From contig NC_013204.1 in the NCBI RefSeq assembly GCF_000024265.1, forward strand, positions 1,042,180-1,106,179: a stretch of 64,000 nt of DNA, given 5' to 3'. This DNA comes from Eggerthella lenta DSM 2243 (GTDB lineage: Bacteria > Actinomycetota > Coriobacteriia > Coriobacteriales > Eggerthellaceae). Of this stretch, positions 15,553 through 54,689 are shown one piece after another (the stretch's first letter is position 1; every line of letters starts with the position of its first letter). Made by a program: the position numbers and the translations under genes. Under the pieces are notes generated by a model that saw only the letters and a list, made by a program, of their open reading frames with translations, ran no database searches and had not been told where the DNA came from.

Positions 15553-17181
15553 TTACGACGATCCCTTGCCCGTCGGCGGTTTCTTCTTCTTGCCGCGGTC
15601 CTTCGCGGTCCTGGCGGCGGCGCTCTTCGCGTGTCCCGCCGTCTCCCGCGGCGGCCTGCCGTGGGGGTAGTACTTCTCGGGCGGCGCCACGGGCTCGGGC
15701 TTGGCCTCAGGTGAGCGCCGGCGCCGCATCGCATGGCGCTCGGGGCCGCCGGCTTCGCCGTCGCCCTCTTCGCGGCGGTAGCGCCGCCCGCGGGGACGCA
15801 GGACGTCGACCTCCCCGCCGTCGTCCGCTCCGCGCTCCATCGGCCGCCCGTGGCGTCCCAGTCGCTCCCGTCGGCGCTCATGGGCCTCTGCGCGCGACTC
15901 CGCGAGCCGCCCGCCCTCTCCGGCCGGTACGGCCCCTCCTGTATCGCCAGCTGTGCCCCGATCTGTTTTCGCATCAGGGCTTCTATCGCCGGCCCCTGCG
16001 GCCCGCATCGGCACGGGAGGGGTCACGGGGCAGGGTTCCGCCCCCGTATGCGCCACCTCAAGGCTCCCGCCCTGGGGACCCGCCCCGAGAGGGCTTGCGA
16101 TGCCGTCCTTCCGCGCGAAGTGCCGCCCGGTGGCGCCGGCATCCCCGACGCTTTCCATAGAAGAGGGGACCGCGGTCTCGATACCCGCCCCATCGCCATC
16201 CGCCCTGGAATGCCTGCCGATAGCCCTCATTGCCTTCTCGATGGGCTCGCGCGCGAGCTCTCCCACATCGACATGCAGCCCGGCGCCGTTTTTGGAGACC
16301 TCTAGCGGCAGTGTTTCCATCGGTGTAGGGCGGTCACCGCTTTCCAATAAGCGGGATTCCTCCACGCCCCCCGCCTTCCCCGCGATGCCGCTCTCGGCGG
16401 CGCCGCGCACGCTCTCCCTCGAGGGATCGCTTTCGGGGATGACGTACCGGCGGTGCCTCTCGAAGGCGGCGCGGTAGCCGTTGCGCATCTGCCTGATGAG
16501 GGGCGCAGCGGTCTTCACGATCTCGTTGACGTACCTCTTGAGCGAGGAGGCCTTGGCCCTCACGTCGTCGGGAGGCAGCACGGGGCTGGCGCACCCGGGG
16601 CCCTGGGCACGGAAGTGCGCCTCGATGACGAAGCGCGTGTTCTCGTCGAGGTCGTCCCATGCGACGGGCACGCGCTCGGCCTCCGGCGCCGCGTCGGCGT
16701 CGCCGTCCATGTCGGCTATGTTGACCAGGCGGTGCAGCCCGGCCTTGGCGTCATTCCACGACGCGGAGGCGATATCGACCGACAGGTCGAGCACGCGGGC
16801 CGCGCCCCTGAGCCTCGTGGGCGGCAGCCCCACGAGGAGCGCCGGCGGGAACAGTTCGTCCACGTAGAACAGCCCGCCGCCCGACCCGCGCGGCCTGGAC
16901 TTGACGCCGTAGACGCCGCGGCACCCGTCGGCTGCCTTGATGTCCGCCCCGGGGAAGAGCGATCTCCATGTGGCGATCGGCAGGATCTCGCGGGACTCGT
17001 GCCAGTCGGATGCGGCGAGCCCGGCGCAGTTCATCGCCGACAGGTTGTAGAAGGCGTTGGCGCAACCCGTGTGCCGGGAAAGCGTCTCGAGATAGCGCCG
17101 CCATCCCGCTTCATTTGAGGCGGCAAAGACCAGATAGTTTTGGTTTTGCGCGTTTACCGTTCGGACGGTCGGGGCGGCCAT
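15553..17181 (-). CDS. ArdC-like N-terminal domain protein with long disordered basic C-terminus
   Basis: Residues 15-120 follow the pattern of ArdC/LtrC-type N-terminal domains of conjugative elements: a W-x-x-YL segment, an N-x-x-A region, ATWRSLFP, a D-G-x-R-G-V-Y-G-V stretch and LFYVDELF. ArdC proteins bind single-stranded DNA and protect incoming DNA from restriction. Residues 200-270 are helical; from about 280 the protein is low-complexity, Gly/Arg-rich and probably disordered. It ends AGHAKSAAARTAKDRGKKKK, a basic relative of the tail. It starts 7 bases after the stop at 17188. The ArdC relation is a motif-level judgement and could be wrong. Confidence 0.6.
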   Translation of the reverse strand: MAAPTVRTVNAQNQNYLVFAASNEAGWRRYLETLSRHTGCANAFYNLSAMNCAGLAASDWHESREILPIATWRSLFPGADIKAADGCRGVYGVKSRPRGSGGGLFYVDELFPPALLVGLPPTRLRGAARVLDLSVDIASASWNDAKAGLHRLVNIADMDGDADAAPEAERVPVAWDDLDENTRFVIEAHFRAQGPGCASPVLPPDDVRAKASSLKRYVNEIVKTAAPLIRQMRNGYRAAFERHRRYVIPESDPSRESVRGAAESGIAGKAGGVEESRLLESGDRPTPMETLPLEVSKNGAGLHVDVGELAREPIEKAMRAIGRHSRADGDGAGIETAVPSSMESVGDAGATGRHFARKDGIASPLGAGPQGGSLEVAHTGAEPCPVTPPVPMRAAGAGDRSPDAKTDRGTAGDTGGAVPAGEGGRLAESRAEAHERRRERLGRHGRPMERGADDGGEVDVLRPRGRRYRREEGDGEAGGPERHAMRRRRSPEAKPEPVAPPEKYYPHGRPPRETAGHAKSAAARTAKDRGKKKKPPTGKGSS

Positions 17182-17187
17182 GGCGCG

Positions 17188-18156
17188 CTAGAGCTTCTTG
17201 CCGCCGGCATCGCCCTCGGCCGTGGCCGATTTTGCCGCGGCCGCCTGGGCCTTGGCGCAAATGAGCTGCGGATCGCGATTCTTGCTTGCACCGATGCAGT
17301 AGGTACGCACCTCGCGCAGGGCCGGGGCGATGTCCTCCTCATCCGCATCCTCGACGGCGAGGGATTTGCCCAGGCTGGAGCCGAAAAGGTACACGTCGGC
17401 ATCCGTGCGCAGGAAGAAGCGCACCTCCTCGGGCTTCTCCGCGAAGTCGTCGACATGGACCTCACGGGCGCCAACGTCGTCGAGGTCGCGGATCGTGATG
17501 GGTCCATCGCCGATCTTGCCGGCATCGACCTTGTAGACGGCCAGGTCTCGCTCCCCGAAAGTGACGGGGCAGACGGAGACATGCACACTGCCGCCGTCGA
17601 CCGCGGGCCAGACGTTGACGGTGGGATAGAAGTCGCCGTCGCAGTCGAAGACCTGCTCGTAAAACTCAATGACCTGCTTGCTGTGTCCGACCTCCAAATC
17701 GAACGAGCTGGGGTCGAGACAGTCATGGATGACGCCCCAGCCTTGGCTGTAGATGGTGTCGTCGATATGGTTCCCGAGCTGGTCGATGGCGAAATCTACA
17801 TTCTCCTCGGTTGCGGGGATGGGGAAGCCGAAGTTGCCCCAATCGCTCTCAAGCGAGTCGGCGATGTCCTTGCGGCGCCAACGGAGCGTGATGAACTCGT
17901 CATCGTAGAGCTTGCCGCCGGTCGGCGCGTAATCGCGGCCGCGGCCCTTCTCGAAGCGCAGCTTGGCGCGCGTCACGTCGTCGAAGCGCTCGATCGACTC
18001 CCAGGTGCGCGAGTCCGCTTCGTAGCCGCTGGCCACGGCATACGGGAGGCCTGCGCCGTCGGCGACGCGTCCGCCGTCGGCCTCGGTCATCGCCAGCAGG
18101 GCGAGACCGCTCTCGTCGTCATACTCGAGGACGAAATGGTCCAGCTTGTCGTTCAT
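17188..18156 (-). CDS. LEYD-family paralogue 1, with tail
   Basis: The 322-residue protein belongs to a family of four tandem paralogues. Shared features in order are FVLEYDD near residue 8, a LPYAVASGY segment, SRTWE, D-x-T-x-AK, GRDYAPTGGKLYDDEF, RWRRKDIA, and FPIPATEENVDFAI (about residues 112-125). A second half (DLEVG to AVYKVDAGKIGD) is also shared with the paralogues at 18216 and 19853. The tail is DPQLICAKAQAAAAKSATA ending GGKKL. I cannot assign a function. It lies in the row of genes transcribed from promoter copy 6. Confidence 0.8.
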   Translation of the reverse strand: MNDKLDHFVLEYDDESGLALLAMTEADGGRVADGAGLPYAVASGYEADSRTWESIERFDDVTRAKLRFEKGRGRDYAPTGGKLYDDEFITLRWRRKDIADSLESDWGNFGFPIPATEENVDFAIDQLGNHIDDTIYSQGWGVIHDCLDPSSFDLEVGHSKQVIEFYEQVFDCDGDFYPTVNVWPAVDGGSVHVSVCPVTFGERDLAVYKVDAGKIGDGPITIRDLDDVGAREVHVDDFAEKPEEVRFFLRTDADVYLFGSSLGKSLAVEDADEEDIAPALREVRTYCIGASKNRDPQLICAKAQAAAAKSATAEGDAGGKKL

Positions 18157-18215
18157 GTTGGGTCTCCTAACGGATAGGGCGGTGGAAGCAGGCGTCCGCC
18201 GCTGGTTACTGGTTC

Positions 18216-19166
18216 TTATGTCCTCGATATACCGGCCACGCCGCCGCGCCGCCGAACGTGGCGTGGCGGCGTGGCCGTCTCGGGCGGGTCGATCGGGTGC
18301 GAGATGTGCTGGCAGCGCTGCGCGGTTTGGCGCAGGTAGGGCGAGATGTCGCGTTCTTGCTCCCTGACCGAATCGCTAGGTGCCGGGATATAGGCGCAAA
18401 GGGGGTCGACGAAGGCGCGGACGACGGGCGATGAGCTGGCGAAGGCACGGACTTTACCGATATCCGCATCGATACCGTCCACGCAAAGCTCGATTTTCCC
18501 ACCCAGTCGGTCGATCTTCTCGAAGGTGACGGGTTCGTTGACGATTGCCGCGGCCGGAATCGTGCGGACGATGAGCCCGAACGAGGGGCCGTCTCCCAAG
18601 CGGCAATGGGACACATGAACCGCATTGCCGTCGCCCGACGGCCAGAACATCGAATTGTGGTGCGCGGTCACGTCGTATACGCCCCTGTAGAAGTTATCCG
18701 CCTGGGAGCTGCCGAGACCGAGGTCGAGACGTTCCACGCGGATGGAATCGACCATCTCCCTCCATCCATGCTCGATGAGACGGTCCCGGACATGCGCGAT
18801 TTGCCTGATCGCGGTATCGATGTTCTCCTTCGTCGCGGGGATAGGGTAGTCAAGCGACTCCTCCAGGATCCCGGCGATATCGCCGCGGCGCCAGCGGCAG
18901 GCGATGATCTCGTCGTCGTGGAGCCTGCCTTCGTTGGGTGTGTAGTCGCGGCCGACGCGGTGCTCGAAGACGACCTTGGCGCGCGTGATGTCGCCGAACG
19001 GCGTTGCCCTGGCCCAGGTGCGCGATCCGCGGTGGTAGCCGCTCGTGACGAGATAGGGCATGTCGGTGCCGCCTCGGACGGCCGAGCGGGCGTCGTCGGT
19101 CAACGCGACCAGCGCGCAATCGCTCCACTTGTCATACTCGAGGACGACATGCGGGACGGTCTCCAT
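18216..19166 (-). CDS. LEYD-family paralogue 2, tail degenerate
   Basis: Alignment by eye with the paralogues at 17188 and 19853 runs through VVLEYDK, LVTSGY, GRDYTPNEGRLHDDEI, CRWRRGDIA, YPIPATKENIDTAI and the second half to about residue 285 (ISPYLRQTAQRC). After IDPPETATPP, where the others have the Ala-rich tail, this frame continues PRHVRRRGGVAG and stops. The +1 frame over the same bases ends in GHKNQ, closer to other tail ends, so a small frameshift near 18270 may have destroyed the tail. Confidence 0.75.
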   Translation of the reverse strand: METVPHVVLEYDKWSDCALVALTDDARSAVRGGTDMPYLVTSGYHRGSRTWARATPFGDITRAKVVFEHRVGRDYTPNEGRLHDDEIIACRWRRGDIAGILEESLDYPIPATKENIDTAIRQIAHVRDRLIEHGWREMVDSIRVERLDLGLGSSQADNFYRGVYDVTAHHNSMFWPSGDGNAVHVSHCRLGDGPSFGLIVRTIPAAAIVNEPVTFEKIDRLGGKIELCVDGIDADIGKVRAFASSSPVVRAFVDPLCAYIPAPSDSVREQERDISPYLRQTAQRCQHISHPIDPPETATPPRHVRRRGGVAGISRT

Positions 19167-19207
19167 TTCGATACTCCAATCATATTGCCGCGGACGGTGT
19201 GGCGGCC

Positions 19208-19315
19208 CTATTGTTTCTTGCCGCTTCGTCCGAGCTCGGCTCCATCGCGATTCAGCGCGGCCTTGGCGGCCGCTGCGGCCATGGCTTGCGGCTCGCGTGG
19301 ACTTTCCTTCCGTCA
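19208..19315 (-). other. Intact tail sequence behind an in-frame TGA
   Basis: Directly after the TGA that ends the 159-residue frame (stop at 19313-19315), the same frame continues without interruption as RKESPREPQAMAAAAAKAAL and ends RSGKKQ at a TAG (19208-19210). This is a well-preserved copy of the shared tail. A CGA to TGA change would explain it; translational readthrough is the alternative. Confidence 0.75.
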
Positions 19316-19792
19316 GGGATCTATCGATGCGCGGAGCCTGCGGTCCTTCTCGAGCCTCAGGTCCGCGTACCTTTTTCGGGCGGCGTAGTATGCGGCGCTG
19401 TCGCTCTCGCTGCCGTCGAGGCCGTGGACATGCGCCATATGGGCATCAACGTGCTCGACCATTGCGGCGCCCGCCTTCTCGATTTCGTTTGCGAGCTCCG
19501 CATCGGTGAACCCGCGGATATCCGACGTGGCGGAACCGCCCCGGCGCATGACCCCGTCAAGCGAGTATTCCCGCCCGCGCAATCCCTCGTAGGCGAGCTT
19601 CGCCTTCACGATGTCGTCGAATAGCGTGCAGTCCTCCCACTCGCGGGTCGGATGGTCGTATCCCGTGGCGACGACGTAGGGCGTGTTGTACCCGTCGATG
19701 GCCGGCACGACCCCGTCGACGGCACCGGCGATGAGGGCGCACCCGGCAACGTCGTCGTGCTCGAGGATGATGAAATCGATAGTTCCATCCAT
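19313..19792 (-). CDS. Short LEYD-family paralogue 3, stop codon before its tail
   Basis: The 159-residue frame has the family N-terminus (IILEHDD, TPYVVATGY, REWED, LRGREYSLDGV) but lacks the ATEENID and second-half regions, replaced by a short helical segment (AELANEIEKAGAAMVEHVDA). It ends SIDP-stop. The tail that other family members carry is encoded just beyond, in frame (see 19208-19315). With that codon read as sense the protein would be 194 residues. It follows the strong terminator at 19810-19843, so expression depends on readthrough or a promoter I cannot see. Confidence 0.75.
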   Translation of the reverse strand: MDGTIDFIILEHDDVAGCALIAGAVDGVVPAIDGYNTPYVVATGYDHPTREWEDCTLFDDIVKAKLAYEGLRGREYSLDGVMRRGGSATSDIRGFTDAELANEIEKAGAAMVEHVDAHMAHVHGLDGSESDSAAYYAARKRYADLRLEKDRRLRASIDP

Positions 19793-19809
19793 GTTGAAAC
19801 TCCCAAACG

Positions 19810-19843
19810 AAAAAACGCCGCGGCAGGAACCGCCTGCCGCGGC
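19810..19843 (-). terminator. Strong intrinsic terminator after LEYD paralogue 4
   Basis: An 11-bp perfect stem (GCCGCGGCAGG) with a 5-base loop is followed on the minus strand by GTTTTTTCG. It lies 10 bases after the stop at 19853 and separates this gene from the three paralogues downstream. Confidence 0.85.
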
Positions 19844-19852
19844 AAAGTGAAC

Positions 19853-20797
19853 TCAGCGCTTGTTGCCGACGAGCTCGACGGCGCCCTTCGCGCCGCCCTC
19901 GGCGGCCGACAGCGCCGCGGCGGCGATGGCCTGCGGGTCGAGGGGCTTCTGCGCGGCCGTGCGGGCATCCTCGGTCACCTTGCGCAGCGTCGGCGCGAGG
20001 TCGGGCAGCTCGCCGTACAGGTTGTTGACCCCGAAGCGCTCATCGAACCTATCGACCGCGACGCGGTTGGCGAAGGCTCGGATGGCCTCGATGCCGTCGA
20101 GGCCGTGCTTGTACACGCACAGCTCGCGTTTGCCGCCCAGGCGCTCGATATCGTCGACGGTGATCTCGTCGTCCCCGATGAGGCCGGCATCGATCTTGTA
20201 GACTGCCAGGTCGCCGTCCTCGCCGTCCACGGCGGAAGTCATGACGAACGCGGCGTCCCTATCGCTGCTCGGCCAGACGACGGCCTCGGTGAAGCTCGAG
20301 AGCCCGAAGGCGTCCCTGTAGAAGTCCGCGCCCTGTTTGGTCGAGATGCCAAGGTCGAGCGCATCCTCGTCGATGATGGCGCTGATGGTCTCCCAGCCGT
20401 CCTCGATGGAGCGGTCCTGGAAGCCGTCATGCGCCATGAGCTGTCCGATCGCGGCATCGATGTTCTTCTCGGTGGCGGGGACGGGGTAGGAGAGGAAGTC
20501 GGAAAACGCTTCCGCGACGTCATCGCGGCACCAGCGGATCGTGCAGAACTCGTCGCCGCGCAGCTTGCCCTCGGCGAGCGGGTAGGGATGGCGGCACGAG
20601 CGCTCGTAGTCGATCTTCGCTTGGGCGATGTCGGTGAAGTAGTGCCCGGCGCCCCAGGAACGGGACTCGAAATCGTATCCGTCGGCGACGATGTAGGGCG
20701 ATGCGTGCCCGCTCAGGACAGGCTCGTGGCCGCCCGAAGTGGCGACGACGAGCGCGGTGCGCGTGTTCTCGTCATATTCGAGGACGATATGCTCCAT
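19853..20797 (-). CDS. LEYD-family paralogue 4, first gene, with tail
   Basis: The 314-residue protein is the promoter-proximal member of the tandem family: IVLEYDE, SPYIVADGY, SRSWGAG, FTDIAQAK, GKLRGDEF, YPVPATEKNIDAAI, then the shared second half (DLGISTKQGADFYRDAF and LAVYKIDAGLIGDD). The tail is DPQAIAAAALSAAEGG ending VGNKR. The regulon promoter copy 6 lies upstream and the strong terminator follows at once. Function unknown; family expansion suggests that variation between copies matters. Confidence 0.85.
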   Translation of the reverse strand: MEHIVLEYDENTRTALVVATSGGHEPVLSGHASPYIVADGYDFESRSWGAGHYFTDIAQAKIDYERSCRHPYPLAEGKLRGDEFCTIRWCRDDVAEAFSDFLSYPVPATEKNIDAAIGQLMAHDGFQDRSIEDGWETISAIIDEDALDLGISTKQGADFYRDAFGLSSFTEAVVWPSSDRDAAFVMTSAVDGEDGDLAVYKIDAGLIGDDEITVDDIERLGGKRELCVYKHGLDGIEAIRAFANRVAVDRFDERFGVNNLYGELPDLAPTLRKVTEDARTAAQKPLDPQAIAAAALSAAEGGAKGAVELVGNKR

Positions 20798-20857: not shown

Positions 20858-20906
20858 ATGATATGGTCGGGGCGCGGCCGTGTGAACGCATGTTCCCGAA
20901 CGGGAA
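20858..20906 (-). promoter_or_regulatory. Regulon promoter, palindrome copy 6
   Basis: TTCCCGAACGGGAA is at 20893-20906; TATCAT is at 20858-20863, exactly 29 bp away; the -35 position is TTCACA. It lies between the stop at 20916 and the start at 20797. Confidence 0.75.
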
Positions 20907-20915: not shown

Positions 20916-21875
20916 CTAGAGCGCGGGCCTGCGCCCGTCGGCCGTCCCGTCCTGTTTGCTCGAACCAGCTGCCCTCTTGGCGCCGCGGGCCTGCGTGCAC
21001 GGGTCGGTGAGCGAGCGGGAGCGCTCTCGCGACTCGGCGGCGAGGCGCGCCACGAGGCAGGGGTCGGCCGTGTTGGGCGACAGCGTGGCGCACGATGCGG
21101 CCAGGGCCGCGTCGGCGAGCCTCTTGACGCCGTCGGCGCCGTCCGGGACCTCGCGCATGTAGTCTCTCGAGTCCTCTGCGGTGTCCACGAACCCGAAGAA
21201 CGCGCGCTCCCTCCCGCCGTCCGCGATGGGATAGGCGGCGCCCTCGATCAGGACGCCTCCGTCACTGCGCGCGTCGACGCAGTTGACTCCGATCTCGGCG
21301 GTATCGGTCCCGCCGAGGCCGATCGTGACGGAGAACAGCCCTTCGGAGGTGCCGATCGCTTCAGGGACCTTAACGCCGAACTGCCGGGCCGTCGATATCG
21401 CCGTCTCGGCGGCCATGAGCGCGGTGGCGTACAGCTCCGGGCTCGACAGCCCGCGCACGAGCGCGGCGCGGCAGCACCCGGCGAGCGTGTAGGAGTTCGC
21501 GGCGGGGGCGATGCCTCTCGGGAACACGGGGATGCCGGGCGTGTTGGCCTTGAGGAGGGGCGAGGCGGCGGCGAGCTGTTCGAGCTCGAAGCGCGAGGGC
21601 GTCTCGTCGAGCAGGTCGGCGAGCGCGTCGGCGACGGCGTCGAGCGGGTCTCCGGCGATGCGGCACCAGGTCGGGACGTCGACGGCGATGCAGGCGGCGT
21701 GCCCGGTCAGCCGCCCGGCCTCGCGGTCGATGTCGCGCACCTCGACCCTGTTGAGCGTGTACCCGCCCGCCCCGCTCCCGACGGGGCAGGTCAGGATGCT
21801 GGAGTTCTCCCGGGAGATGATCGTGTAGTGCGCGCCGTCGCAGAATACGGCGGAGTCGATTTCGAGCGGCTGCAT
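20916..21875 (-). CDS. Unknown 319-residue protein after the polyvalent gene
   Basis: The start MQPLEIDSAV at 21875 has AAAGGACAAGCC before it. The protein is soluble-looking with Ala-rich helices (ALVRGLSSPELYATALMAAE). No family recognised. The end DPCTQARGAKRAAGSS then a basic RRPAL is a diverged tail. It follows the 2194-residue gene by 94 bases, with the 13-bp hairpin at 21900-21928 between them, so it is either the second gene of that unit or separately transcribed. Confidence 0.75.
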   Translation of the reverse strand: MQPLEIDSAVFCDGAHYTIISRENSSILTCPVGSGAGGYTLNRVEVRDIDREAGRLTGHAACIAVDVPTWCRIAGDPLDAVADALADLLDETPSRFELEQLAAASPLLKANTPGIPVFPRGIAPAANSYTLAGCCRAALVRGLSSPELYATALMAAETAISTARQFGVKVPEAIGTSEGLFSVTIGLGGTDTAEIGVNCVDARSDGGVLIEGAAYPIADGGRERAFFGFVDTAEDSRDYMREVPDGADGVKRLADAALAASCATLSPNTADPCLVARLAAESRERSRSLTDPCTQARGAKRAAGSSKQDGTADGRRPAL

Positions 21876-21899
21876 GGCTTGTCCTTTCGGTTTCAAGGG

Positions 21900-21969: not shown

Positions 21970-24900
21970 TTACATGCCGGCTTTGCGCTTCTCGCCCTCG
22001 GCGTGCCCATCGTGCGCGGATGCGGCCGCCGAGCATCGCGCGGCCTCGGCGATGTCGCCCGGGACACCGAGCGCGACGCCGTTGGGCACGGCGGTCGCCG
22101 CATTGTGCGCGGCGGAGTCCTCGCAGATGAGCCCCTGGCGGCGCAGCTCCGCCATGCGTGCGGCCTCGCGGGCCTCGTCGTCGGCCGCGGCGGCGCGCTC
22201 GTGCTCGCGCTCGGTCTCGCGCTCCTCCTCGACGCCCACCTCGATCGCGGCGGCCTCGGCCTCGTCGCGCTGCGCCTGCTCGCGCTGGCACTGCAGCTCG
22301 GCCTCGATGCGCTCCTGCTCGAGGACGGCCAGGCGTTGCTCGAGCTCGTCGAGCTCGGCCTGCTTGGGGAACGGCTCCTTGGCCGCCTTCTGGGCGTCGG
22401 CGAGCGCGTGCTGCGCTTCGCGCAGCTTCAGCTCGATCTCGGCGGGGCCCTTCGCGTCTCGGGCGATGATGCGGTCCATCTGGGTGAGCACGGTGAATGC
22501 TCCTTTCTCTCCGGAAGGGAAGACCCTGTCCGACATGTGAACGTGTTTGGCGGCATCGACCGCGAGGCCGATATAGGGCAGCCAGTCGTCGTCGAGGACG
22601 TGCTGGCGGCGGCACACGACCGACAGGCCGCGGTAGATCCCGATGGTCTCCTGGCAGCCGGGTCGGACGTCGTAGGCGGCGCGGCGCAGGGCCCGGATGG
22701 CCTCCTCCTTGTCGGCGATGTGCGTGCCGCCGACGGTGAGGAAGCTGTCCTTGGAGCCGAGCGTCTGCTGGCGGACCAGGTCCGCCTCCGCGAACGGAAT
22801 CTCGTCGTCGGCGAGCATGTCGCGCTGGGAGGTAAGCGCCTCGACGAGCGGGCGGTACTGCGTCTCGATCTTGTGCTGGACGTCGGCCAGGCCCTCCAGG
22901 TGCGATGCCATCATGAGCTTGAGCTGGCCGATCTTGTTCTCGACGTCCATGCGCTCGGCCACGGTGGGGTCGCCCTCGGCGATCTGCTTCATCTGCGCGA
23001 GCGACAGCACGGTCTCGTCCAGGTCGTCCATCGTTCGCACGGGCGACTTGTTCGTGAACACCTGGCTGATGAAGCGCTGCTTGCGCTCGACGATGGAGTA
23101 GAGGTAGCTGTCGAACGTGCCGGTCGAGACGTAGCGGAGATCGTGGACGTGGTCGAAGCCGTTGCCCTGGCGCACGATGCGCCCCAATCGCTGCTCGAGG
23201 TCGGACGGTCGCCACGGGCAGTCGAGGTCGTGGATCGCGGCGAGTCGCGTCTGCACGTTCGTTCCGGTGCCGAGCGTCGTGGTCGACCCCAGCAGGATGC
23301 GGATATCGCCGTCGCGCACCTTCTCGTACAGCGCCTCCTTCTGCTTCGACTTGCCCTTGGCGTCGGTCACGCAGGCGATCTCGGACTCGGGGACGCCGGC
23401 CTCGATGAGGCGGCGGCGCACGTCGTCCTGGATGTTCCAGCGCCCGGAGGCGGGCGTGGAGGAGTCTACGAACACGAGCTGGGCGCCGCGCTCGGCCTCG
23501 GTGTGCTCGCGGATGTCGAGGATGTTCTGCACGCATGCGTCGACCTTGCCGCCGGAAAGCGGCTCCATGTCGGGGTCGTCCTCGAGGTAGAGCAGCTTCG
23601 GGTCGAGCGCGACCTTCCTGCCGTCGCCGGTGATCTTGAGCATGTTGTCCACGCTCGGGTCGCAACCGGCATGGACCTTCTCGCCGCGCTTCACCAGCGC
23701 CTCGACCTCGGCGAGCTGTTCGGGCGTCGCGGGCACCGCGACCGCGTGGCTCTCGAGCTCGGGGAGGTCGAGGTCGAGGTCGTCTGCGGTCATGATGTCG
23801 CTGTAGCAGTGGAACGAGCTCATGAGCTCGGGGAGGTTCTGGAACCTGGCGAAGCGGCGTTTGATGTCCAGGCCGCCGCCCTCGGGCTTCGGCTCCAGTG
23901 TCTCGGTGACCTCGCCGAAGGTCTTGGCCCACGCGCTGAAGTTCGAGACCCCCTGGCTGGCCAGCAGGCTCGGCGAGAGATAGCGCTGCATGTTGTAGAG
24001 CTCGGCCATCGTGTTCGTGACGGGCGTGCCCGTGGCGAACACGATATTGCTGCCGCGCCCGTTGCCGCGCAGGTATTCGCACTTCATCAGGAGATCTTCG
24101 CACTTGGCGGCGTCGCTGGTCTGCATGCCCGGCACCGAGCCGCCCGACACCGCGAGGTTCTTGAAGTAGTGGGCCTCGTCGACGAATATCGCGTCGCAGC
24201 CGACCTCCTCGAACGTCGCGCCCTCGAGCGTCTTTGATGCGTTTCGCTTCTCGAGCGACTGGAGCTTGCTCTTGAACTTGTCGCGCACGCCCTCGATCTG
24301 CTTGACCGAGAAGTCCTTCTCCCCGGCGCCGTCCTCCAGCTCCATGAGTCTGGATTCCTCGAGCTCGTCGATGCGCGCCGTGAGCGCCGCCTTCTGCGCC
24401 CCGTAGGACATCTGCAGCTTCTCGAAGCGGCTGAATCCGACGATGACGGCGTCCCAGTCGCCCGATGCCGCCTGGCCCCAGAACCGGCGCACCGAGTCCG
24501 GGCTTTTCGCCGCGGCGTCGGTGAGGACGAGCAGCTTCGCGTCGGGGTAGAGCTTGAGGTAGTCGGCGGCCCACTGCTCGGTGAGGTTGTTCGGCACGAC
24601 GATCATCGGCTTGCGGGCTCGCCCCAGGCGCTTGAGCTCGTGCATGGCGGCGATGCCGGTGAATGTCTTGCCGGCGCCGACCGTGTGCGCGATCAGTGTG
24701 CCCTCGCCGTCCTGGATGATGCGCGCCACCGCGTCGCGCTGGTGCTTCCTGAGCTGGATGTCGGGCGACATCCCCGGCAGCGAGAGGTAGTCGCCGCTGT
24801 ACGCGCGCGGGGCGACGCGGTTGAGCTTTCGGTTGTAGATGTCGGCGAGCATGGCCGCGCGGCCCTCGTCCTTCCAGACCCACTCGCGGAAGGCCTCCTC

Positions 24901-41205: not shown

Positions 41206-41206
41206 G

Positions 41207-42477: not shown

Positions 42478-42499
42478 AAAGCGCGCCCTGTCGGCGCGC
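42478..42499 (-). terminator. Attenuator-like hairpin between flp and the peptidase gene
   Basis: Arms GCGCGCC and GGCGCGC with a 5-base loop, followed by TTTCC on the minus strand. A second GC-rich hairpin (about 42515-42545) precedes it. Such partial terminators after flp would give more pilin than assembly proteins. Confidence 0.45.
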
Positions 42500-42562
42500 G
42501 GGAAGGTTCGGGATGCCCGGGGGCGGGGGTGTCTGCCCCCGGACGGATGGCTCCGGGATGCG

Positions 42563-46332: not shown

Positions 46333-49281
46333 TCAGCCCTTGCTGCTCGCGACGCCCTCGGCCTTCGCCTCGGTCCATTTGATGTAGAGCGTGACGTCGC
46401 GCTTGGCGGTGACCGAGGAGACCTTCTCGGTGCCGCTAGCCGAGGTCAGCCAGCATTCCGGGACGTATCTGCGCCATGTCTCGTCGGCGATCATGGCGAA
46501 CACCTCGCCGGGTTTCACCGGCGTGACGCTCTCGCCCCAATAGAGCGCCTTGTGCCCCTGCCCGTCGTCGCCGATGGTCGCGAGCGCCAGGCCGTCGAGC
46601 CTGTGCTTCTCCGTGGACAGGGAGAAATCGGGGAGCTCGAAGGAGGAGCGCGCATCGGGTTTGTACATGAGCGGCGCGGTGCGGTAGATGCCGGCGTCCT
46701 CGGGCTTGAGTGACCCCTCGGCGTACTCGACGCGCACGGTGCAGCGGTTGCGGCCGTAGAGTTTGAGCGTCTGGTCCTTGACGATGGTGACATTCGCGGC
46801 GGGCTGGGTGAGCTCGGGATCGAGGAACCAGCCCGAGAACCCCGTCGAGGGGTTCTGCCCGTATTGCTCGTCGAGGTTGCAGGTGTCCTTCAGGGCCTTC
46901 TGCGTCGCGATGGCGGCGGGGTTGTAGATATCGCCGCCTTCGACGTCGAGGTCGCGATACACCATGTCCTTCTGCTCGATGCCGTCGGCATAGTACTCGA
47001 CGCACGTCGTGACGACTCGCACGCCGCGGGAGACGAGCGTGCCCAGATAGCGGTCGGTCCATACGTAGCGGTCGGTCTTGCTGACGGTGCGGATGCCGAG
47101 CATCGCGGCGGCGTAGAGAAATCCCGGTCCCCAGGAGGCGTCGGCAGCCAGGTTTTCGCTGTCGGAGAACTCTCTGACGACGCGACCGCCCTGCGGCTTG
47201 CGCACGAGGTGGATGTTCATGCCGCAGATCTTGTTGCCGTCGCCGCCGTCCGGCTCGATGCCGGCTGCGGGTGCGGTGTTGACGTCGAGCGGCGCCGAGG
47301 CGGAACAGTTGACATAGACCGGGCCGGACCACTCGCCGCTCCCGTTGAGCAGCTTGGTCCTGATCTCGAGGTCGTAGTGGTCCGCTATCTCGCCGGTGAG
47401 CCAGACCTTCACCCTGCCGAGGATATCCGACTCGGCATCGAGGATGTGCACGCCGTCGGAGCCTTCGACCCACTCGCCCCCGCTGTAGCGCTGCGCGGCG
47501 TAGTGGATCGATCCGGGGAACGCGGAACCCTCGAGCCTGAGGCCGAGGCCGTAGATAGAGTGGCCTCCATGGGGGTAGCCGATATGTCGGTGCGCGAGCG
47601 ATTCCTGCTGCCACCCCCATGTGGCCACGCCGCACTGGGCGAAGATGGAGGCGTTGTCCTCGGGGAGGTCGTCGTCGATGTCGGACATGTAGAGCCTGAA
47701 GATCGGCCTGACCGGCAGGTCCGATTCGTTCTTGCATCCCAGGGCCCAGCCGGAGGGCCTGATTCCGACATCCGGGTCGTCCGGGTCTGCATTATGCCAT
47801 CCGCAGATCTTCGCCTTGTCGCCGATCTTGAGCGCGTCCTCGTCGCAATGGACCGAGACCTTGCCCTCGATGCGGGCCTCGACGAGGTTCCACTGGGCGT
47901 TCTTCTGGATGGCCCAGCGCCCGGGGCATGCCGCGGACTGGACGGATACGCTTGCGACGGAGTTCGACGTGACCCCGTTAGTGTCGAGGCGCAGGCCGTC
48001 GGCATCCGAGGTGATGAAGTAGCAGGAGTGGTCGGTCTCGTTCGAGTCGTCGGGCTCGTGGTGGATCCACCATGCCTTGCTCCGGCCGTCGGAGTTGTTG
48101 ATGTCCCAGATGTCGGCATGGCTGTTCTGGACGACTCCGTGGTCGACCACGGGCGCCGCATGGCCGCTGTTGTTCAGCATGTGCGTCAGGTTCGGGCCGA
48201 CCATGTTGGCTAAGGCGAACGTGAAGGTGTCGACGCCGTCGTTGGTATAAGGCTTGAGCATCCAGGTCTGGTTGACGCCGTGATAGTTCTCGTAGAGGCA
48301 CACGCCGCGCCCGTTATCGTACATGGCTTTGGGTTTACCGTCGCTATATGTGCCCTGCACCAAGTCGAGCTGGATGTCCGGCGCGGAGACGGGCCTGATG
48401 TAGAAGATGCCGCCGTAGAGCGTGACATCGTTGCGGATGTAGATCTTCTCGACCCTGAAATCGCGGGAAGGGGTGGTCTGGCTCAGGAACCAGTAGTTCG
48501 GGGCGTCGTTTTCCTTGATGACGTTCTCGTGCATCCCGAAGTGATTGTAGTCCACGTTGTAGACCTGCAGCTTGCTGGACACGCTGTGGCGCGCCTCGCC
48601 CTTCTGCCTCTTGACCCAGAAGGACGGGCGGGTCGATCCCCAGTACGTGCTCCCCTGGAAGTCGTTGAAGTCGTAGAAGCCGTAGGAGATCCAGTCGTAG
48701 TACCTGTAGCCGATCTGGTTCCTGAAGTCGCCGGCGAAACGGGAATCGGCGAACTCGGCGCCGTCGAGGTAAACGTACCCCTTGTTGTCGCCGCCATCGG
48801 AGATGGTATCGACCCAAAGGCCGTTGCCATGCTGCAGGTCCTTGCTGGAGCACCATGCGAACGGCCTGACGACTACGAGGGTGTAGAGCTCGTTGGCGTA
48901 ATTGCACTCGAAGACGCAGGCGAAGGCGTACCTCAGCCATTGTCCGTAATGGTTTATATAGTAGCTGGTGTTGGCGGGGGCGGCGCAGAGCCATTCATGG
49001 TAGCCGTTCGCGAAGCCGAAGAACATGTCCCCCTCGCCCTGACGAGGGTCCGAATGGACGAGCAGCGAGTCGTCGGCGGCTCCGAACCAGCCCTGGCCGA
49101 GGTTGAAGTTCATGCCTGCGAGCGCTTCCGCCTTCCGGACGGGTCCGAGCAGGGCCAGTCCCGCCGCGCAGGCGAGCGCGGCGAAGGCTCCTCGACGGGA
49201 GATCGGAAGCTCGAGCAGCCCCGTCTTCTCGCTGTCCCCGTCCCGTACCGGGACCATATCGGTTTCTGGCGAGGTGTTCAA
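46333..49281 (-). CDS. Large Tat-exported cell-surface-type protein
   Basis: The 982-residue protein has a twin-arginine signal (ISRRGAFAALACAAGLALL, about residues 27-45, then AEA). Near residue 285 comes a region that resembles a ricin-type lectin repeat (RGVCLYENYHGVNQTWMLKP). Near residue 830 it has a Listeria-Bacteroides (InlB B) type repeat (FSGWFLDPELTQPA). It ends in a repeat-like domain without an LPXTG anchor. It starts at a TTG behind AGGAGGAG. It follows the small membrane gene by 6 bases. The substrate is unknown; carbohydrate binding or adhesion is likely. Confidence 0.75.
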   Translation of the reverse strand: MNTSPETDMVPVRDGDSEKTGLLELPISRRGAFAALACAAGLALLGPVRKAEALAGMNFNLGQGWFGAADDSLLVHSDPRQGEGDMFFGFANGYHEWLCAAPANTSYYINHYGQWLRYAFACVFECNYANELYTLVVVRPFAWCSSKDLQHGNGLWVDTISDGGDNKGYVYLDGAEFADSRFAGDFRNQIGYRYYDWISYGFYDFNDFQGSTYWGSTRPSFWVKRQKGEARHSVSSKLQVYNVDYNHFGMHENVIKENDAPNYWFLSQTTPSRDFRVEKIYIRNDVTLYGGIFYIRPVSAPDIQLDLVQGTYSDGKPKAMYDNGRGVCLYENYHGVNQTWMLKPYTNDGVDTFTFALANMVGPNLTHMLNNSGHAAPVVDHGVVQNSHADIWDINNSDGRSKAWWIHHEPDDSNETDHSCYFITSDADGLRLDTNGVTSNSVASVSVQSAACPGRWAIQKNAQWNLVEARIEGKVSVHCDEDALKIGDKAKICGWHNADPDDPDVGIRPSGWALGCKNESDLPVRPIFRLYMSDIDDDLPEDNASIFAQCGVATWGWQQESLAHRHIGYPHGGHSIYGLGLRLEGSAFPGSIHYAAQRYSGGEWVEGSDGVHILDAESDILGRVKVWLTGEIADHYDLEIRTKLLNGSGEWSGPVYVNCSASAPLDVNTAPAAGIEPDGGDGNKICGMNIHLVRKPQGGRVVREFSDSENLAADASWGPGFLYAAAMLGIRTVSKTDRYVWTDRYLGTLVSRGVRVVTTCVEYYADGIEQKDMVYRDLDVEGGDIYNPAAIATQKALKDTCNLDEQYGQNPSTGFSGWFLDPELTQPAANVTIVKDQTLKLYGRNRCTVRVEYAEGSLKPEDAGIYRTAPLMYKPDARSSFELPDFSLSTEKHRLDGLALATIGDDGQGHKALYWGESVTPVKPGEVFAMIADETWRRYVPECWLTSASGTEKVSSVTAKRDVTLYIKWTEAKAEGVASSKG

Positions 49282-50231: not shown

Positions 50232-51278
50232 TCAGATGTGCTTCCCGTCCGGCCCGCCGTCCCCTCCCGGCTTCGCGGCGAGCTGCGACACCAGCGCGGC
50301 GATGTCGGAGGGCGTCCGCCCCGCCCGCTCGATCTGCTCGCCGAGGGTGCGGCGCACCTCCCTCGCGAGCTCGGCGGTTGCCCGGAAGGGGCCCGACGAG
50401 GGGTCGGCGAAGCGCTCCTTGGCGCTCTCGATCGCCCACCCGGGCAGGTCGACGAGCCCGCCGTCCCGGCCCGTCGCGACGACGAGGAAGCCGCCGCGGA
50501 TGATTTCGGTCTCGCCGTCGCGGCACAGGGTCCGGTTCGGTTTGAGCGCGGACCCTTCCTCGTCGCCTGCGCGCAGCAGCTTCACGGTGACGCCCCCATA
50601 CTCGGCCAGGGTCTCGGTCTCGGGGCGGTCGAGCCCGATGGAGGCCAGGGCGCGGTCCATGTCGGGAAAGACCGTCGTCTCTCGCGGCAGGTCGCCCACG
50701 GGCACGTAGACAGCGGCGACCTTGGCGCCGCCGCGGTATCCGCCGCTTGCGATGCAGCGCGCGATGTCGGCATCGGCGGCATCGATCTCGAAATCGCATC
50801 CGGCGGCGTAGGCCCTCGCGGTCTCGGCGAGCGCATCCTGGACGTCGAGCACGGTATCGGCCGGAAGGCCCAGGTGCGGCGTGTCCTGGAGCAGGATACC
50901 GAATCCCCGGTGGTCGGCCAGCAGCGTCTTCATGTAGTAGCGGCCGATGAGATACGGCAGGGGCTCTATATCCTTGATGTTGCGCGCCGCATCGGGGCGG
51001 TCGTCGCCGCGATGCAGGTAGAACTCGACCATGGGCAGCCCGCCGGAACAGGACAGGGAGCGTTCGAGGTGGGTTTCGTACGGGTCGTATGTGACCATGT
51101 CGTCCTTGCCGTAGCGCGCCCCGGGAAGGACCAGGTGCATCCAGACCGACTCGCCCTCCTTCGCGCCGTCGCACTCGATCTGTACGTCGTCGACGAGCGC
51201 CGAGACGGAATCGGGCGCGACGCCCTCGCGCAGGTGTGCCAGCAGGTTCTCGATATCCTGCTCTTTATAGGTGCTCAT
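50232..51278 (-). CDS. Unknown 348-residue tail protein
   Basis: No recognised domain. The N-terminus (KEQDIENLLAHLREGVAPDS) and the region before the tail (ELAREVRRTLGEQIERAGRT) are helical; the middle is mixed. The tail PSDIAALVSQLAAKPG ending DGKHI is complete but less Ala-rich. Its upstream gene ends at 51347, 69 bases away, with no palindrome between, so it probably shares that transcript. Confidence 0.8.
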   Translation of the reverse strand: MSTYKEQDIENLLAHLREGVAPDSVSALVDDVQIECDGAKEGESVWMHLVLPGARYGKDDMVTYDPYETHLERSLSCSGGLPMVEFYLHRGDDRPDAARNIKDIEPLPYLIGRYYMKTLLADHRGFGILLQDTPHLGLPADTVLDVQDALAETARAYAAGCDFEIDAADADIARCIASGGYRGGAKVAAVYVPVGDLPRETTVFPDMDRALASIGLDRPETETLAEYGGVTVKLLRAGDEEGSALKPNRTLCRDGETEIIRGGFLVVATGRDGGLVDLPGWAIESAKERFADPSSGPFRATAELAREVRRTLGEQIERAGRTPSDIAALVSQLAAKPGGDGGPDGKHI

Positions 51279-51346
51279 GGTGGCTCCAATGGATCGGAAT
51301 CGTTATTCGTGTGGGACCGCCCCGCGCGGCCCGTTGTCCAGACCGG

Positions 51347-52757
51347 TCACAACCGGTTACCGGCCGCGGTGGTCGCCCCGCGGGCCGTGGCCAGTGCCGC
51401 CGCCTGGGCCCGCTCGACGAGCGCCGGGAAGCTGATATTGACACCTCCGGGTCTGGACGCGCGCATCGCGGCGCCTTCGGGACCGCGCTCGGTCTTGCAG
51501 GTCGGCTCGCCGCCGGCGACGTCGCAGCGCTTCATCGAGGGGATGAAGTTGTCGATCAGCCGGTCCGGCACCGTGCCGGGGTGCCGGAAGGCGATGTTCC
51601 CGTTGGCATCCTGCTCTAGCAGGATCGGGCATCTTGAGACGACTTCCCGGCCATGGGGGTCGTAAGTCGCGCGTTCCGGATGGAACCTGGCGACCGCATA
51701 CGCCCCGCGCTCCTTCCTGTCGAAGCTCAGGCCCCACACGCCGCCCTGATCGCCGGCGCATCTGGCCTCCATGTAGAAGCCCTTCTCGCACCGGTAGGTG
51801 AGCGCGGCGGCGAGCGCCGCGGCGACCTTCGGGCAGGCGTCGAACTGCCACGCGCGCATGCGTGTTTCGGCGCCGTCCCTAAACGAGAACTCGAGCCCCC
51901 GGAAGCCGCTCACGCCGAAGTGCCAGGCCTTCACGGGCTCCAGGCTGGTGCAGCCCCACACGGTCTCGACGAAGTCGGCTACCGACGTTGCGCCGTAAAG
52001 CCTGGCGTTCTCCTCGGCGAGCTCGCCTGCGTCCGCGAACGCGTCGAGGTCGCGGCAGACGAGCCTATCGTCGCGGGGTCCGTCCCCGACCGGGAAGGCG
52101 TTCGCATCGAAGGGGTGCTCGGGGCTCCACCCGCTATGGCCCCTCAGGACCTTGACGAGTCCCGAGAGCCCGTCATTCAGGTGCTCGGTCCAACCGGGCC
52201 CGGCGATGCCGTCCTCGCGCGCCGCGCGTCTGGCTGATGCGAACTCCATCATGACGTCCGCGACGACTCCCCAGCTGAGCGGGTGGAACTCGTCTGGCAG
52301 GACGGTGAGTTCCCTGGGGTCGATGGAGTTCTTGCCGTCTGGCGTACAGCGCCGCGTCGTAGGGGATGCCGTCCTCGCCCTCATCGACCAGGGTGGCGAG
52401 CGGGGTTTCCGTACAGTAGAACCCGTATAGCTTGCCCTCGCAATTTGAGTCGAGGATGAAAGTTTCGCCGGTGCGGACGTTGTAGATCGATTCCCACTCA
52501 GGCAGGACGGGGACCATGAGCTCGCGGACCGCCCGCTCGCGGAAGCGCTTATGCTCGGCGATCTCGCGGGTTGCGTCGTCTCCCATGACGGCGATCACCT
52601 CGTCGGGGGTCTTGAGGACCTTGTCGCCATCGGGTCCGTGCAGCACGGCATCCTCGTCGTTGTTGTAGCTGTAGGAGAGATCCCCGAACGGCTCGCAGAA
52701 TACGCGAAGCACATCCAGCGCATCCGCGGCGCTCATCGGCTCGATATAGCTCTTCAT
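51347..52757 (-). pseudogene. Frameshifted gene for a tail protein
   Basis: Two overlapping frames make one gene. The first (from MKSYIEPM at 52757) reads sensibly through ETPLATLVDEGEDGIPYDAA and then turns into Arg-rich shadow sequence after about 52345. The second picks up at TPDGKNSIDPRELTVLPDEF, one base out of phase, and continues to the tail FPALVERAQAAALATARG ending AGNRL. A single-base insertion near 52345, natural or a sequencing error, explains this. Intact, the protein would be about 470 residues. No family recognised. Confidence 0.7.
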
Positions 52758-52783
52758 ATGCCATCACATCCAAGATAACAGGG

Positions 52784-52817
52784 AAGGGCGCCCGCGGGAC
52801 AGTGCGCGGGCGCCCTT
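52784..52817 (-). terminator. 13-bp perfect hairpin after the gene ending at 52851
   Basis: Arms AAGGGCGCCCGCG and complement with a loop of 8 bases; the following minus-strand sequence (CCCTGTTATCTTGG) has only a weak T tract, so partial readthrough into 52757 is likely. Confidence 0.55.
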
Positions 52818-52850
52818 CTGGTGCGGGTTGCGGAGGTCGCGGGCGCGCTG

Positions 52851-53336
52851 CTAGAGCTTGGCGGCCTGCGTGGCCTCGGTGCCCTGCTCGGCGGTACCGT
52901 GGGCCGCGGCGACTGCCGCGGCGGCCTGGGACTGCGGGTTGGGCGCCTCGGCGCTCATCTTGGCCTTGTAGGCCTCGCGCGCGGCCTTGACGGCCTTGGT
53001 CAGCTCGAACGGGTCGACGTCGAGGGTCTTGAGCTGGTCGTTCTCGTCATACTTGAACAGATGGACGGGCATGTCCTTCTTGACGGTGACGGTGGTGCCC
53101 TTGCCGTTGGCGATATCGGACTCGGTCCAGGGCTTGCGGAAGGTCTTGAACTTGTAGCCGGAGATGTCGATGCCGTTCATGTCCGTCCCCGTGGGGATGG
53201 TGCAGAGGACGGCAGGCCAGGTCTCGGTCTTCGTGCCGTTCGTGATCACGATGTCCTCGCCCTGCGCGTTGGTGACGCTGCACCACTTTGCGGGAAACTT
53301 GATGCTGACCTCGTTGTCGTACTTTTCCTGGTCCAT
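52851..53336 (-). CDS. Small conserved mobile-element protein with tail
   Basis: The 161-residue protein starts at MDQEKYDNEVSIKFPAKWCS behind AGGAAGAAAGG. The FPAKWCS opening and the GIDISGYKFKTF part resemble a small protein common in Gram-positive conjugative elements that has no established function. The tail NPQSQAAAAVAAAHGT ends QAAKL. It has its own regulon promoter (copy 9), which lies inside the upstream open frame. Confidence 0.8.
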   Translation of the reverse strand: MDQEKYDNEVSIKFPAKWCSVTNAQGEDIVITNGTKTETWPAVLCTIPTGTDMNGIDISGYKFKTFRKPWTESDIANGKGTTVTVKKDMPVHLFKYDENDQLKTLDVDPFELTKAVKAAREAYKAKMSAEAPNPQSQAAAAVAAAHGTAEQGTEATQAAKL

Positions 53337-53864
53337 GGCGGTACCTTTCTTCCTGCCCGTCGCGCGGTGGGCGGCGGGGCGTTGATTTGCTACGAATGTA
53401 CCCTCGGGAACGGTGTGCGTATAGATAGTTTCCCGAACGGGAAGCGGCTCGAGGCCTCCGCGGCGGCGCAGCTCATCCGCTACCTCGCGCAGCCTGGAGA
53501 TATCGCCGATGACGGGCGCGGCGAGCTGTTCTTTGGGAATGAACCCGTCGAGTGCGAGGATCGCCACCGCGCCGGGCAGGGCGAGCACCCCGGTGAGCTC
53601 CGCGCTCGCGTCCGAGTAGTAGAAGTGGATCGGGTATTTCAGCACGACGGCCGCCTCCGGCACGTTGATGCCGAGCTCGTCTACCGCGCGGCGGATGGCG
53701 GTCCTGACCTGATAGGAGAGCTCGGAGGGCAGGCCGTCGGTGGCGATGGAGGGCTTGCCCGCGTCGTACTTGGTCGCGAACAGGCTGAAATCGGTGAGCT
53801 CGCCGTTGCCGTCGGGGTAGGCCGAGCGAGCCATCGTGGAGGACTGGTTGATATCCCTGAACAT
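52851..53864 (-). CDS. Upstream open frame without its own stop, reading into the next gene
   Basis: A frame starting MFRDINQSS at 53864, 15 bases after the ArdA gene, encodes about 125 residues of globular-looking sequence (SYQVRTAIRRAVDELGINVP, then PIHFYYSDASAE). It then continues without a stop through promoter copy 9 (giving LPVRE from the palindrome) and into MDQEKY of the next gene. The natural 3' end, including any tail, appears to have been lost. Whether the 337-residue fusion is made is unknown. Confidence 0.5.
   Translation of the reverse strand: MFRDINQSSTMARSAYPDGNGELTDFSLFATKYDAGKPSIATDGLPSELSYQVRTAIRRAVDELGINVPEAAVVLKYPIHFYYSDASAELTGVLALPGAVAILALDGFIPKEQLAAPVIGDISRLREVADELRRRGGLEPLPVRETIYTHTVPEGTFVANQRPAAHRATGRKKGTAMDQEKYDNEVSIKFPAKWCSVTNAQGEDIVITNGTKTETWPAVLCTIPTGTDMNGIDISGYKFKTFRKPWTESDIANGKGTTVTVKKDMPVHLFKYDENDQLKTLDVDPFELTKAVKAAREAYKAKMSAEAPNPQSQAAAAVAAAHGTAEQGTEATQAAKL
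53395..53443 (-). promoter_or_regulatory. Regulon promoter, palindrome copy 9
   Basis: TTCCCGAACGGGAA is at 53430-53443; TACATT is at 53395-53400, exactly 29 bp away. It drives the gene starting at 53336. Confidence 0.75.
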
Positions 53865-53879
53865 CATGGCGGCCGCCCC

Positions 53880-54689
53880 CTACAGTTTCGCGGCGCGTGC
53901 GGTGCCGCCGGCACCGTCGTCGGCGCTGAGCGCCGCAAGGGCGCTGGCGGCATAGGCGATCTCGGACGGTGCTGCGGGCTTCTCCTGGGCGACACGCCCG
54001 CGCCACTCGGCCACGGTCTCGCCCCCGATCTCCTCGAACGAGTACTCGTCGAGCAGCGGCCAGTCGCCGCCCTTGTTGACATAGCAGGTCTCGCACAGGT
54101 CGACATAGCCGTTGTTCACGGCGATCTCGCCGTAGCGGTTGAAGTCGAAGCAGGAGAGGAGTTCGCCGTCTCCTCGGTTCATGAGGTTCCAGAACTCGGA
54201 ATCGTCGTTGAGGACGGTGTACGCATAGTTCTCCTGCGGCGTCGAACGCTCGAGGCAGGTCTTATGCCACTGGTCCTCGACATACATATCGTCATAGAGG
54301 TAGTCGAATACGGGCAGCTCGTCTGCCTGCGCCACGAGGTTCATGAGCTCGTCGAGATGGTCCAGGGGCTCGCCGTAATCGATAGCGGCCTGGATATGGG
54401 CCAAGTCCCCTTCGGGAAGGAGCGTGAGCTGCATCGCGAGGACGTTCAGCTTGTCGAGCCGGCCGTACTCATCGAACACCTGGGGGCAGCGGAACGGCAG
54501 CCCATCGTAGTCGGAGATATAGGTCTCCTCGTGCTCCGCGTCGACGAGCCCGTGGCTACGCAGCCAGGGCTCGATCTTGTCGGGATCAATCGGCAGGTGC
54601 ATCCAGGTATCGCGAAGCTCTCCCTCGCTGTAGTAGCCCCAGTTGCCCACGCAGACGTCGAAGCCGTCGCGGAAATCGTTATTTGCCAT
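53880..54689 (-). CDS. ardA: ArdA-family antirestriction protein with C-terminal tail
   Basis: Residues 10-130 follow ArdA closely: VCVGNWGYYSEGELRDTWMH, LPIDPDKIEPWLRSHG, EETYISDYDGLPF, then a YGRLDKLNVLAMQL helix and HLDELMNLVAQADEL. ArdA mimics B-form DNA and blocks type I restriction enzymes during establishment. At 269 residues it is longer than the usual 165-180; the extra C-terminal part ends PSEIAYAASALAALSA and RAAKL, the shared tail. The start at 54689 (MANNDFRD) is chosen because the longer frame translates the promoter. First gene under promoter copy 10. Confidence 0.85.
   Translation of the reverse strand: MANNDFRDGFDVCVGNWGYYSEGELRDTWMHLPIDPDKIEPWLRSHGLVDAEHEETYISDYDGLPFRCPQVFDEYGRLDKLNVLAMQLTLLPEGDLAHIQAAIDYGEPLDHLDELMNLVAQADELPVFDYLYDDMYVEDQWHKTCLERSTPQENYAYTVLNDDSEFWNLMNRGDGELLSCFDFNRYGEIAVNNGYVDLCETCYVNKGGDWPLLDEYSFEEIGGETVAEWRGRVAQEKPAAPSEIAYAASALAALSADDGAGGTARAAKL

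Follow-up and report, generated by a model that had tools for sequence, protein, structure and literature searches.

Why do some 28 proteins of one mobile element, antirestriction proteins among them, share a short C-terminal tail? The question is raised by a 64,000-nucleotide stretch of DNA (the window) that corresponds to positions 1042180-1106179 of the closed 3,632,260-bp genome of Eggerthella lenta DSM 2243; coordinates below count from its first letter, and negative values or values above 64,000 lie to its left or right. A mobile element of ~84 kb spans window coordinates ~5.6k to ~89.8k and encodes a type IV secretion system (T4SS) directly to the right of the window. An earlier note on this DNA had pictured a co-regulated, commonly tagged set of proteins, antirestriction proteins included, on a conjugative element, and the tag, the regulon and the T4SS described here support that picture well. 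These three features, and the finding that related elements bear another tag throughout, are read directly from the sequence. The interpretation that we favor, at a little under even chances, is that the tail would be an element-specific C-terminal address tag on establishment and anti-defence proteins, with the VirD4-type coupling protein of the element as its likeliest reader.

The tail can be described as a proline-capped short Ala/Lys segment, predicted to be helical, that is followed by ~14-18 flexible residues and usually ends in a basic residue. A profile built from 18 aligned tails matches 18 window sites at E<=0.001 when searched across the 3.63-Mb genome. The best match outside the window (E 0.00105, the next being 0.003) lies at about -33.9 kb, again at a C-terminus and in a neighbouring element, and in this genome the tail is confined to the element studied here and one protein of that neighbour. 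The neighbouring-element protein (-34852..-33818, left of the window) carries two tail-like repeats at its end. A pairwise shuffle test of C-termini proved weak because Ala-rich chromosomal ends score too (13 matches in the chromosomal control), and a held-out test was used instead, in which the profile was trained without the queried tail and without its paralogues and run against the 2252 C-termini of open reading frames (ORFs) in the surrounding 264 kb. This recovered 12 of the 18 tails at E<0.02. Significant matches to the tail profile fall at the extreme C-terminus, and the anchor proline stands 26-33 residues before the end in nearly all tail proteins. The count comes to 18 strong tails and ~10 variants, a larger number than the 20 or so of the earlier note. 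Tails in distant genomes (G295, G314, G243, G133 and G378) that were suggested by a class-wide profile are not C-terminal tails of called genes and were rejected as false.

Tagged proteins also differ from their surroundings in charge. A basic residue occurs within the last two positions in 37/58 tagged cases against 46/167 in the comparison (P 1.5e-6). The protein bodies that precede the tag are acidic: their median net charge is -8.3 per 100 amino acids, whereas chromosomal controls have -2.3 (P 4e-5) and genes of the element that lack the tag have -1.2 (P 1e-5). The most acidic tagged body is that of ArdA, a DNA mimic, at -15 per 100 amino acids. As an end shared by unrelated proteins, the tail has the form of the short C-terminal signals by which T4SS translocation substrates are defined.

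The tailed genes are tied together by a regulatory sequence. The operator TTCCCGTTCGGGAA has 10 exact copies genome-wide, all inside the window and all in one orientation, where only 0.5 sites would be expected in the window even allowing two mismatches. Each of the 10 exact sites is followed by a TANNNT -10 element after exactly 29 bp (six sites) or 39 bp (four sites), and since TANNNT occurs at only ~0.25% of positions this fixed spacing is not due to chance. The same spacing rule holds in the related copies from Gordonibacter pamelaeae 7-10-1-b (G066) and Gordonibacter sp. 28C (G067) as well as in genome G096. Operators stand before operons of tail proteins, before ardA and before the gene of the DarB-like protein, and no exact operator was found upstream of the T4SS genes. 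As judged from its arrangement, the locus resembles an establishment regulon in that one regulatory sequence stands before several operons that include antirestriction genes. Location of the operator upstream of the -10 element, at two spacings that are one helical turn apart, points to binding by an activator. We prefer to view the operator as an ordinary activator site; a single-stranded DNA promoter is unlikely given a conserved stem of just 5-6 bp, a loop that is invariant in exact sites and a -10 element phased at 29/39 bp. The operator at 53430-53443 is located within ORF 52851-53867, a position conserved in Gordonibacter, which raises the question of either the start codon or an internal promoter.

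Three tailed proteins had been put forward as antirestriction factors. Two of these stand in identity, tail and regulon promoter. ArdA (PF07275, 89.5 bits) ends in PSEIAYAASALAALSADDGAGGTARAAKL (held-out tail E 0.012), and its gene has the operator upstream at 54771 with the -10 element exactly 29 bp further on. The DarB-like methylase/helicase is homologous to P1 darB (AF234172; query 253-1656, 26%, E 4e-17), ends in PGDIAEAARCSAAASAHDGHAEGEKRKAGM (held-out tail E 1.2e-4) and is likewise preceded by an operator, at 28631, with exactly 29 bp to the -10 element. The third, 15553-17181, keeps its basic tail variant, and its assignment as ArdC-like is unsupported. Its C-terminal PRETAGHAKSAAAR lies 32 residues from the end, in agreement with the spacing of the tail, and its homologue in genome G087 ends in a G087-type tail; however, the tail profile gives no match to it at E<10. 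The protein matches no Pfam family (none at 0.05), NCBIfam family or PDB sequence, its translation has no HEXXH motif as would be found in the ArdC zincin metallopeptidase, and the AlphaFold2 model is unusable at a predicted local distance difference test score (pLDDT) of 30. A plasmid search returned no match to 15553-17181 or to 46436-49281, and viral contig scans with ArdA and 30753-31877 returned no relatives.

The remainder of the element is that of a conjugative element of the Tn1549/CTn type, as indicated by its VirD4 and VirB4 families and an integrase. Its ends were set solely by similarity to the copies in G066 and G067. The T4SS end (64919-89817, right of the window) shares 98% DNA identity over 25 kb between E. 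lenta and G067, which given the two genera involved, Eggerthella and Gordonibacter, is the mark of recent transfer. In contrast, the cargo region is mosaic and faster-evolving, with mostly 80-97% DNA identity to the Gordonibacter copies. Over its initial 5.7 kb the window instead matches another genome, G096, and an AbiEi-type antitoxin at the element edge (59-598) is 93% to its G096 counterpart. Also encoded by the element are a peptidoglycan hydrolase, a topoisomerase, a SpaA-type adhesin and a member of a large, surface-protein-like family at 46333-49281 (974 amino acids for 46333-49257) that is present in 6/398 genomes of the class, each with elements bearing tagged cargo. The Tad pilus cluster at 35223-42814 looks complete, recurs in the elements of G323 and G223, and could be a mating pilus.

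Three further element lineages, traced via their type IV coupling protein (T4CP), DarB-like and 46436-49281 proteins, each carry a tag of their own on the ends of cargo proteins that are otherwise unrelated. The G087 element (T4CP 58%, VirB4 56% and DarB 42% versus E. lenta) has the tag xxDAARxFAxKAS, for which 4/6 held-out tails ranked ahead of non-tail ORFs (E<=0.0053). That of G323/G252 (Tad 44-55%, DarB 43%, T4CP 30%) has P[SG]TxxLKxxLA, with weaker held-out support (3/6 at E<0.1). The G223 element, which has relatives of the E. lenta Tad and surface proteins, bears [SG]LD[DE]LxExKxxEA on 16 proteins, of which the held-out test recovered 14 at E<0.1; the top match counted as non-tail in this element has PSLDSIAEVATEAASS at its end and probably represents one more tagged protein, the seventeenth. 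Homologous protein bodies carry the tag of the element in which they reside. For example, 52851-53867 and G223 23696-24205 are homologous at E 2e-33, with an Ala-rich tail here and GLDELCEQKTAEAN there, and the same holds for 12171 versus G223 199, for 30168 versus G223 1479, and for 19853 and 15553 versus G087. Judged from these pairs, the tag therefore goes with the element and is not inherited with the protein body. Tagged proteins of these relatives include a Fic protein in G323 (58866-59843, E 1.8e-18) and a MuF_C protein in G087 (27936-28700, E 4e-6), both of which are typical of delivered effectors. Separately, two proteins left of the window (-61743..-61150 and -51927..-51433) have LAQRASDAR..AS near both C-termini, which is maybe the own tag of the left element, and a human gut "bacteriophage" record (MT836399.1), more likely a conjugative element, has a DarB-like protein and a neighbour with the common C-terminal end DVP[ML]PDP.

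This exchange of tags on homologous bodies suggests an address that is read by an element-encoded receptor, as it is the pattern expected of one. A private code with such a receptor would explain why the tag is uniform within an element and differs wholesale from one element to another. For this receptor the coupling protein of the T4SS is the strongest candidate, since the cargo is of a kind that is sent with DNA elsewhere and the signal is confined to the C-terminus. The co-regulated and mostly acidic establishment and anti-defence proteins of the element would carry the tag, the VirD4-type coupling protein of that element would read it, and the tagged proteins would pass through the T4SS into the recipient, either with the DNA or ahead of it. 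Once delivered, they would blunt restriction and other defences of the recipient, with the uncharacterised bodies presumably sharing in this anti-defence function. The broader proposal, that a family of conjugative elements in the Coriobacteriia evolves private C-terminal codes, borne by most cargo proteins of each element, and that a co-evolving element-encoded receptor sends >20 acidic and mostly uncharacterised anti-defence proteins into recipients, is one that we hold more tentatively.

Several observations weigh against export through the T4SS. Expression of establishment genes could just as well begin once the DNA has entered, with no need for export, as in the pLS20 family (PMC8708921). 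The DarB protein of G323 has no recognisable tail, and the core of the G223 tag is acidic, unlike classical T4SS signals. No T4SS gene was found on the 80 kb of the G223 contig that were read, with homologues present on other contigs. Homologues of the T4CP (36-41%) occur in many genomes of the family where the tail profile matches nothing, so the type of T4SS alone does not imply this tag. Additionally, no Pfam or NCBIfam relaxase was found among the element proteins scanned, although an unrecognised relaxase may be present, and the two PF03432 relaxases of neighbouring elements (96205-97482 and -6996..-4936) both lack a tail. The former, right of the window, is MobP1-like, is accompanied by ParA/ParB, adjoins the element and is not in the Gordonibacter copies.

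Element-wide replacement of the tag needs only a matched partner encoded by the element and no secretion channel. The tail could thus dock proteins on a different element-encoded hub, such as a scaffold, a DNA-bound complex or the base of a pilus, that gathers anti-defence proteins on the element as it enters or once it is excised. In E. lenta, G323 and G223 alike, the element with the tag also has Tad pilus genes and a member of the 974-amino-acid family. However, no candidate hub was identified, and the strict C-terminal position, near-constant spacing and basic end of the tail resemble secretion signals, so that we regard docking as unlikely. Ala-rich C-terminal tags can act as degrons, and a tail of this kind would make establishment proteins short-lived and the suppression of host defences brief, in keeping with the transient action expected of such proteins (PMC8708921). 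Tags that differ wholly between related elements are not what a tag for host proteases would look like, the ends are basic as opposed to the LAA of ssrA, and no protease adaptor encoded by the element was seen; we consider a degron somewhat less probable still. Much of the evidence for an address tag would nonetheless suit a hub or a degron as well.

Two further alternatives can be given very little weight. Common 3' ends might have been passed from one cargo gene to another through recombination or gene conversion without serving any function in the protein, as the mosaic and fast-evolving nature of the cargo region could suggest. Identical tail residues share a codon in 0.373 of pairs where 0.447 is expected, however, and recent DNA copying is therefore not the cause. 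Orthologous tails have moreover diverged in sequence while keeping their pattern (ArdA ends in PSEIAYAASALAAL..AAKL here and PTDLARSASAAAAT..APKL in Gordonibacter), which makes this origin very improbable. Packaging of the set in a phage-like particle and injection in the manner of P1 DarB, which the earlier note had brought up, draws on the homology of the DarB-like protein to that of P1 and to similar proteins encoded by many phages. We found no virion genes among the 49 window proteins scanned, and what the element does encode is a T4SS, an integrase and a Tad pilus, leaving injection with scarcely any likelihood.

An address tag read by the coupling protein would share parts with several known systems. 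Phages and conjugative elements encode polyvalent proteins, or early-phase effectors, for which transfer along with DNA has been proposed (Iyer et al. 2017, PMC5512222) and which as in the elements described here include ArdA, a DarB-like methylase/helicase, Fic and MuF_C (the latter two in the relatives) on conjugative elements. Polyvalent proteins are multidomain with an N-terminal ArdC-N "header", whereas here there are many separate proteins with one element-specific C-terminal tag, of which the available portion of that paper contains no description. Plasmids pLS20 and p576 also have variable operons, antirestriction genes included, behind the same regulatory sequence, this variable cargo contrasting with a conserved transfer region, but their regulons are expressed transiently in the recipient with no C-terminal tag reported (PMC8708921); the activator-like operator upstream of the -10 element, in two phases one helical turn apart, further sets the E. 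lenta element apart. The BID domain and positively charged C-terminal T4SS signals of Bartonella and Agrobacterium likewise occur on unrelated proteins, including a Fic toxin that is sent with a conjugative plasmid (PMC5675462). The tag described here differs from these in that it has ~30 residues and no BID domain, differs per element, has an acidic core in G223 and was found on no relaxase. The conjugation machinery of the F plasmid delivers anti-SOS and maintenance proteins to recipients, but this T4SS is Gram-negative and no common tag is described in the available portions of these reports (PMC8406263, PMC11288057). Among T4SS of integrative and conjugative elements of the Tn1549/CTn type, the VirD4 CD1115 and VirB4 CD1110 families are shared above NCBIfam cut-offs; the E. 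lenta element departs from that type in its Tad pilus, its large tagged regulon and the lack of a recognised relaxase. Common promoters before establishment operons (pLS20/p576, PMC8708921) and C-terminal T4SS signals are thus already known. The mainly open-access literature searched yielded no account of a tag that ~28 proteins of one element share and that relatives exchange wholesale for another; earlier reports may exist elsewhere.

The features are collected in the table below. In the cluster of four paralogues at 17188-20797 the tail is kept by two members and lost by 18216-19166 and 19313-19792, apparently by frameshift as the Gordonibacter orthologues are still tailed. A structure model of the 19853 family (pLDDT 59) gave no PDB match at E<=0.001.

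Table. Features of the E. lenta element and its surroundings, in window coordinates; operators are exact copies of the regulon sequence, with the distance to the -10 element.
Feature	Position	Strand	Remarks
ArdA with tail	53880-54689	-	PF07275 E 4.6e-25, 89.5 bits, cut-off 27; tail codons ~53880-53969
DarB-like methylase/SNF2 helicase with tail	21970-28554	-	ResIII/SNF2/Helicase_C (Pfam); tail codons ~21970-22062
"ArdC-like" protein, basic tail variant	15553-17181	-	no family match
Operator	2935-2948	-	-10 at +29
Operator	9667-9680	-	-10 at +29
Operator	13213-13226	-	-10 at +39
Operator, upstream of 13317-14966	15105-15118	-	-10 at +39
Operator	20893-20906	-	-10 at +29
Operator of DarB-like gene	28631-28644	-	-10 at +29
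Operator	33121-33134	-	-10 at +39
Operator inside ORF 52851-53867	53430-53443	-	-10 at +29
Operator of ardA	54771-54784	-	-10 at +29
Operator	58433-58446	-	-10 at +39
Tail protein	822-1529	-	held-out E 1.8e-5
Acidic tail protein	1540-2865	-	held-out E 0.069; operator 2935 upstream
Tail protein	5885-6220	+	held-out E 2.4e-4
Tail protein	6239-6613	-	held-out E 7.5e-5
Tail protein	7391-8353	-	held-out E 0.11; G067 orthologue retains tail features
Tail protein	8369-9589	-	held-out E 1.4e-6; operator 9667 upstream
Tail protein	9717-10610	-	held-out E 1.7e-4; variant operator 10688 upstream
Tail protein	10737-12152	-	held-out E 0.0022
Tail protein	12171-13106	-	held-out E 6.3e-6; G223 homologue (phmmer 1.2e-9) with G223-type tail
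Four paralogous acidic proteins	17188-20797	-	17188-18156, 18216-19166, 19313-19792, 19853-20797; operator 20893 upstream
Tail-variant protein	20916-21896	-	C-terminal PCTQARGAKRAAGS, 28 from end
Operon of tail and tail-variant proteins	30168-33038	-	30168-30740, 30753-31877 (held-out E 0.0015), 31893-33038; operator 33121 upstream
Actinobacterial IHF, without tail	33258-33587	-	NF041260 E 3.9e-31; ORF assigned by length and H2TH match
Tad (type IVc) pilus cluster, without tails	35223-42814	-	T2SSF x2, T2SSE, RcpC/CpaB, TadE, Flp
Tail proteins	50232-53867	-	50232-51278, 51347-52384, 52851-53867; held-out recovery weak, E 0.8-9.4
Tail protein	54984-55349	+	held-out E 5.3e-4
Regulon genes	55368-62135	-	tail variants 55368, 56522, 57433, 58471, 60813; 59610-60668 without tail; operators 58433, 60755
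VirB4-like ATPase	76094-79333		right of window; VirB4 CD1110 family, 765.8 bits, cut-off 325
VirB6-like protein	79769-80914		right of window
VirD4	81338-83371		right of window; NCBIfam VirD4 CD1115 family, 403.9 bits, cut-off 250
Integrase	87369-88685		right of window; Phage_integrase E 3e-21

Little is known about T4SS signals in Gram-positive elements, and their prediction is difficult; a tag that is uniform in each element and changes wholesale from one relative to the next provides a direct handle on which machinery reads it. While the T4SS region is near-identical in Eggerthella and Gordonibacter, the tagged cargo varies. In each element the tag singles out ~20 to 28 proteins, the majority of which belong to no known family, as candidates for anti-defence functions in common bacteria of the human gut. 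If the tail is indeed such an address, C-termini alone would suffice to list new anti-defence proteins.

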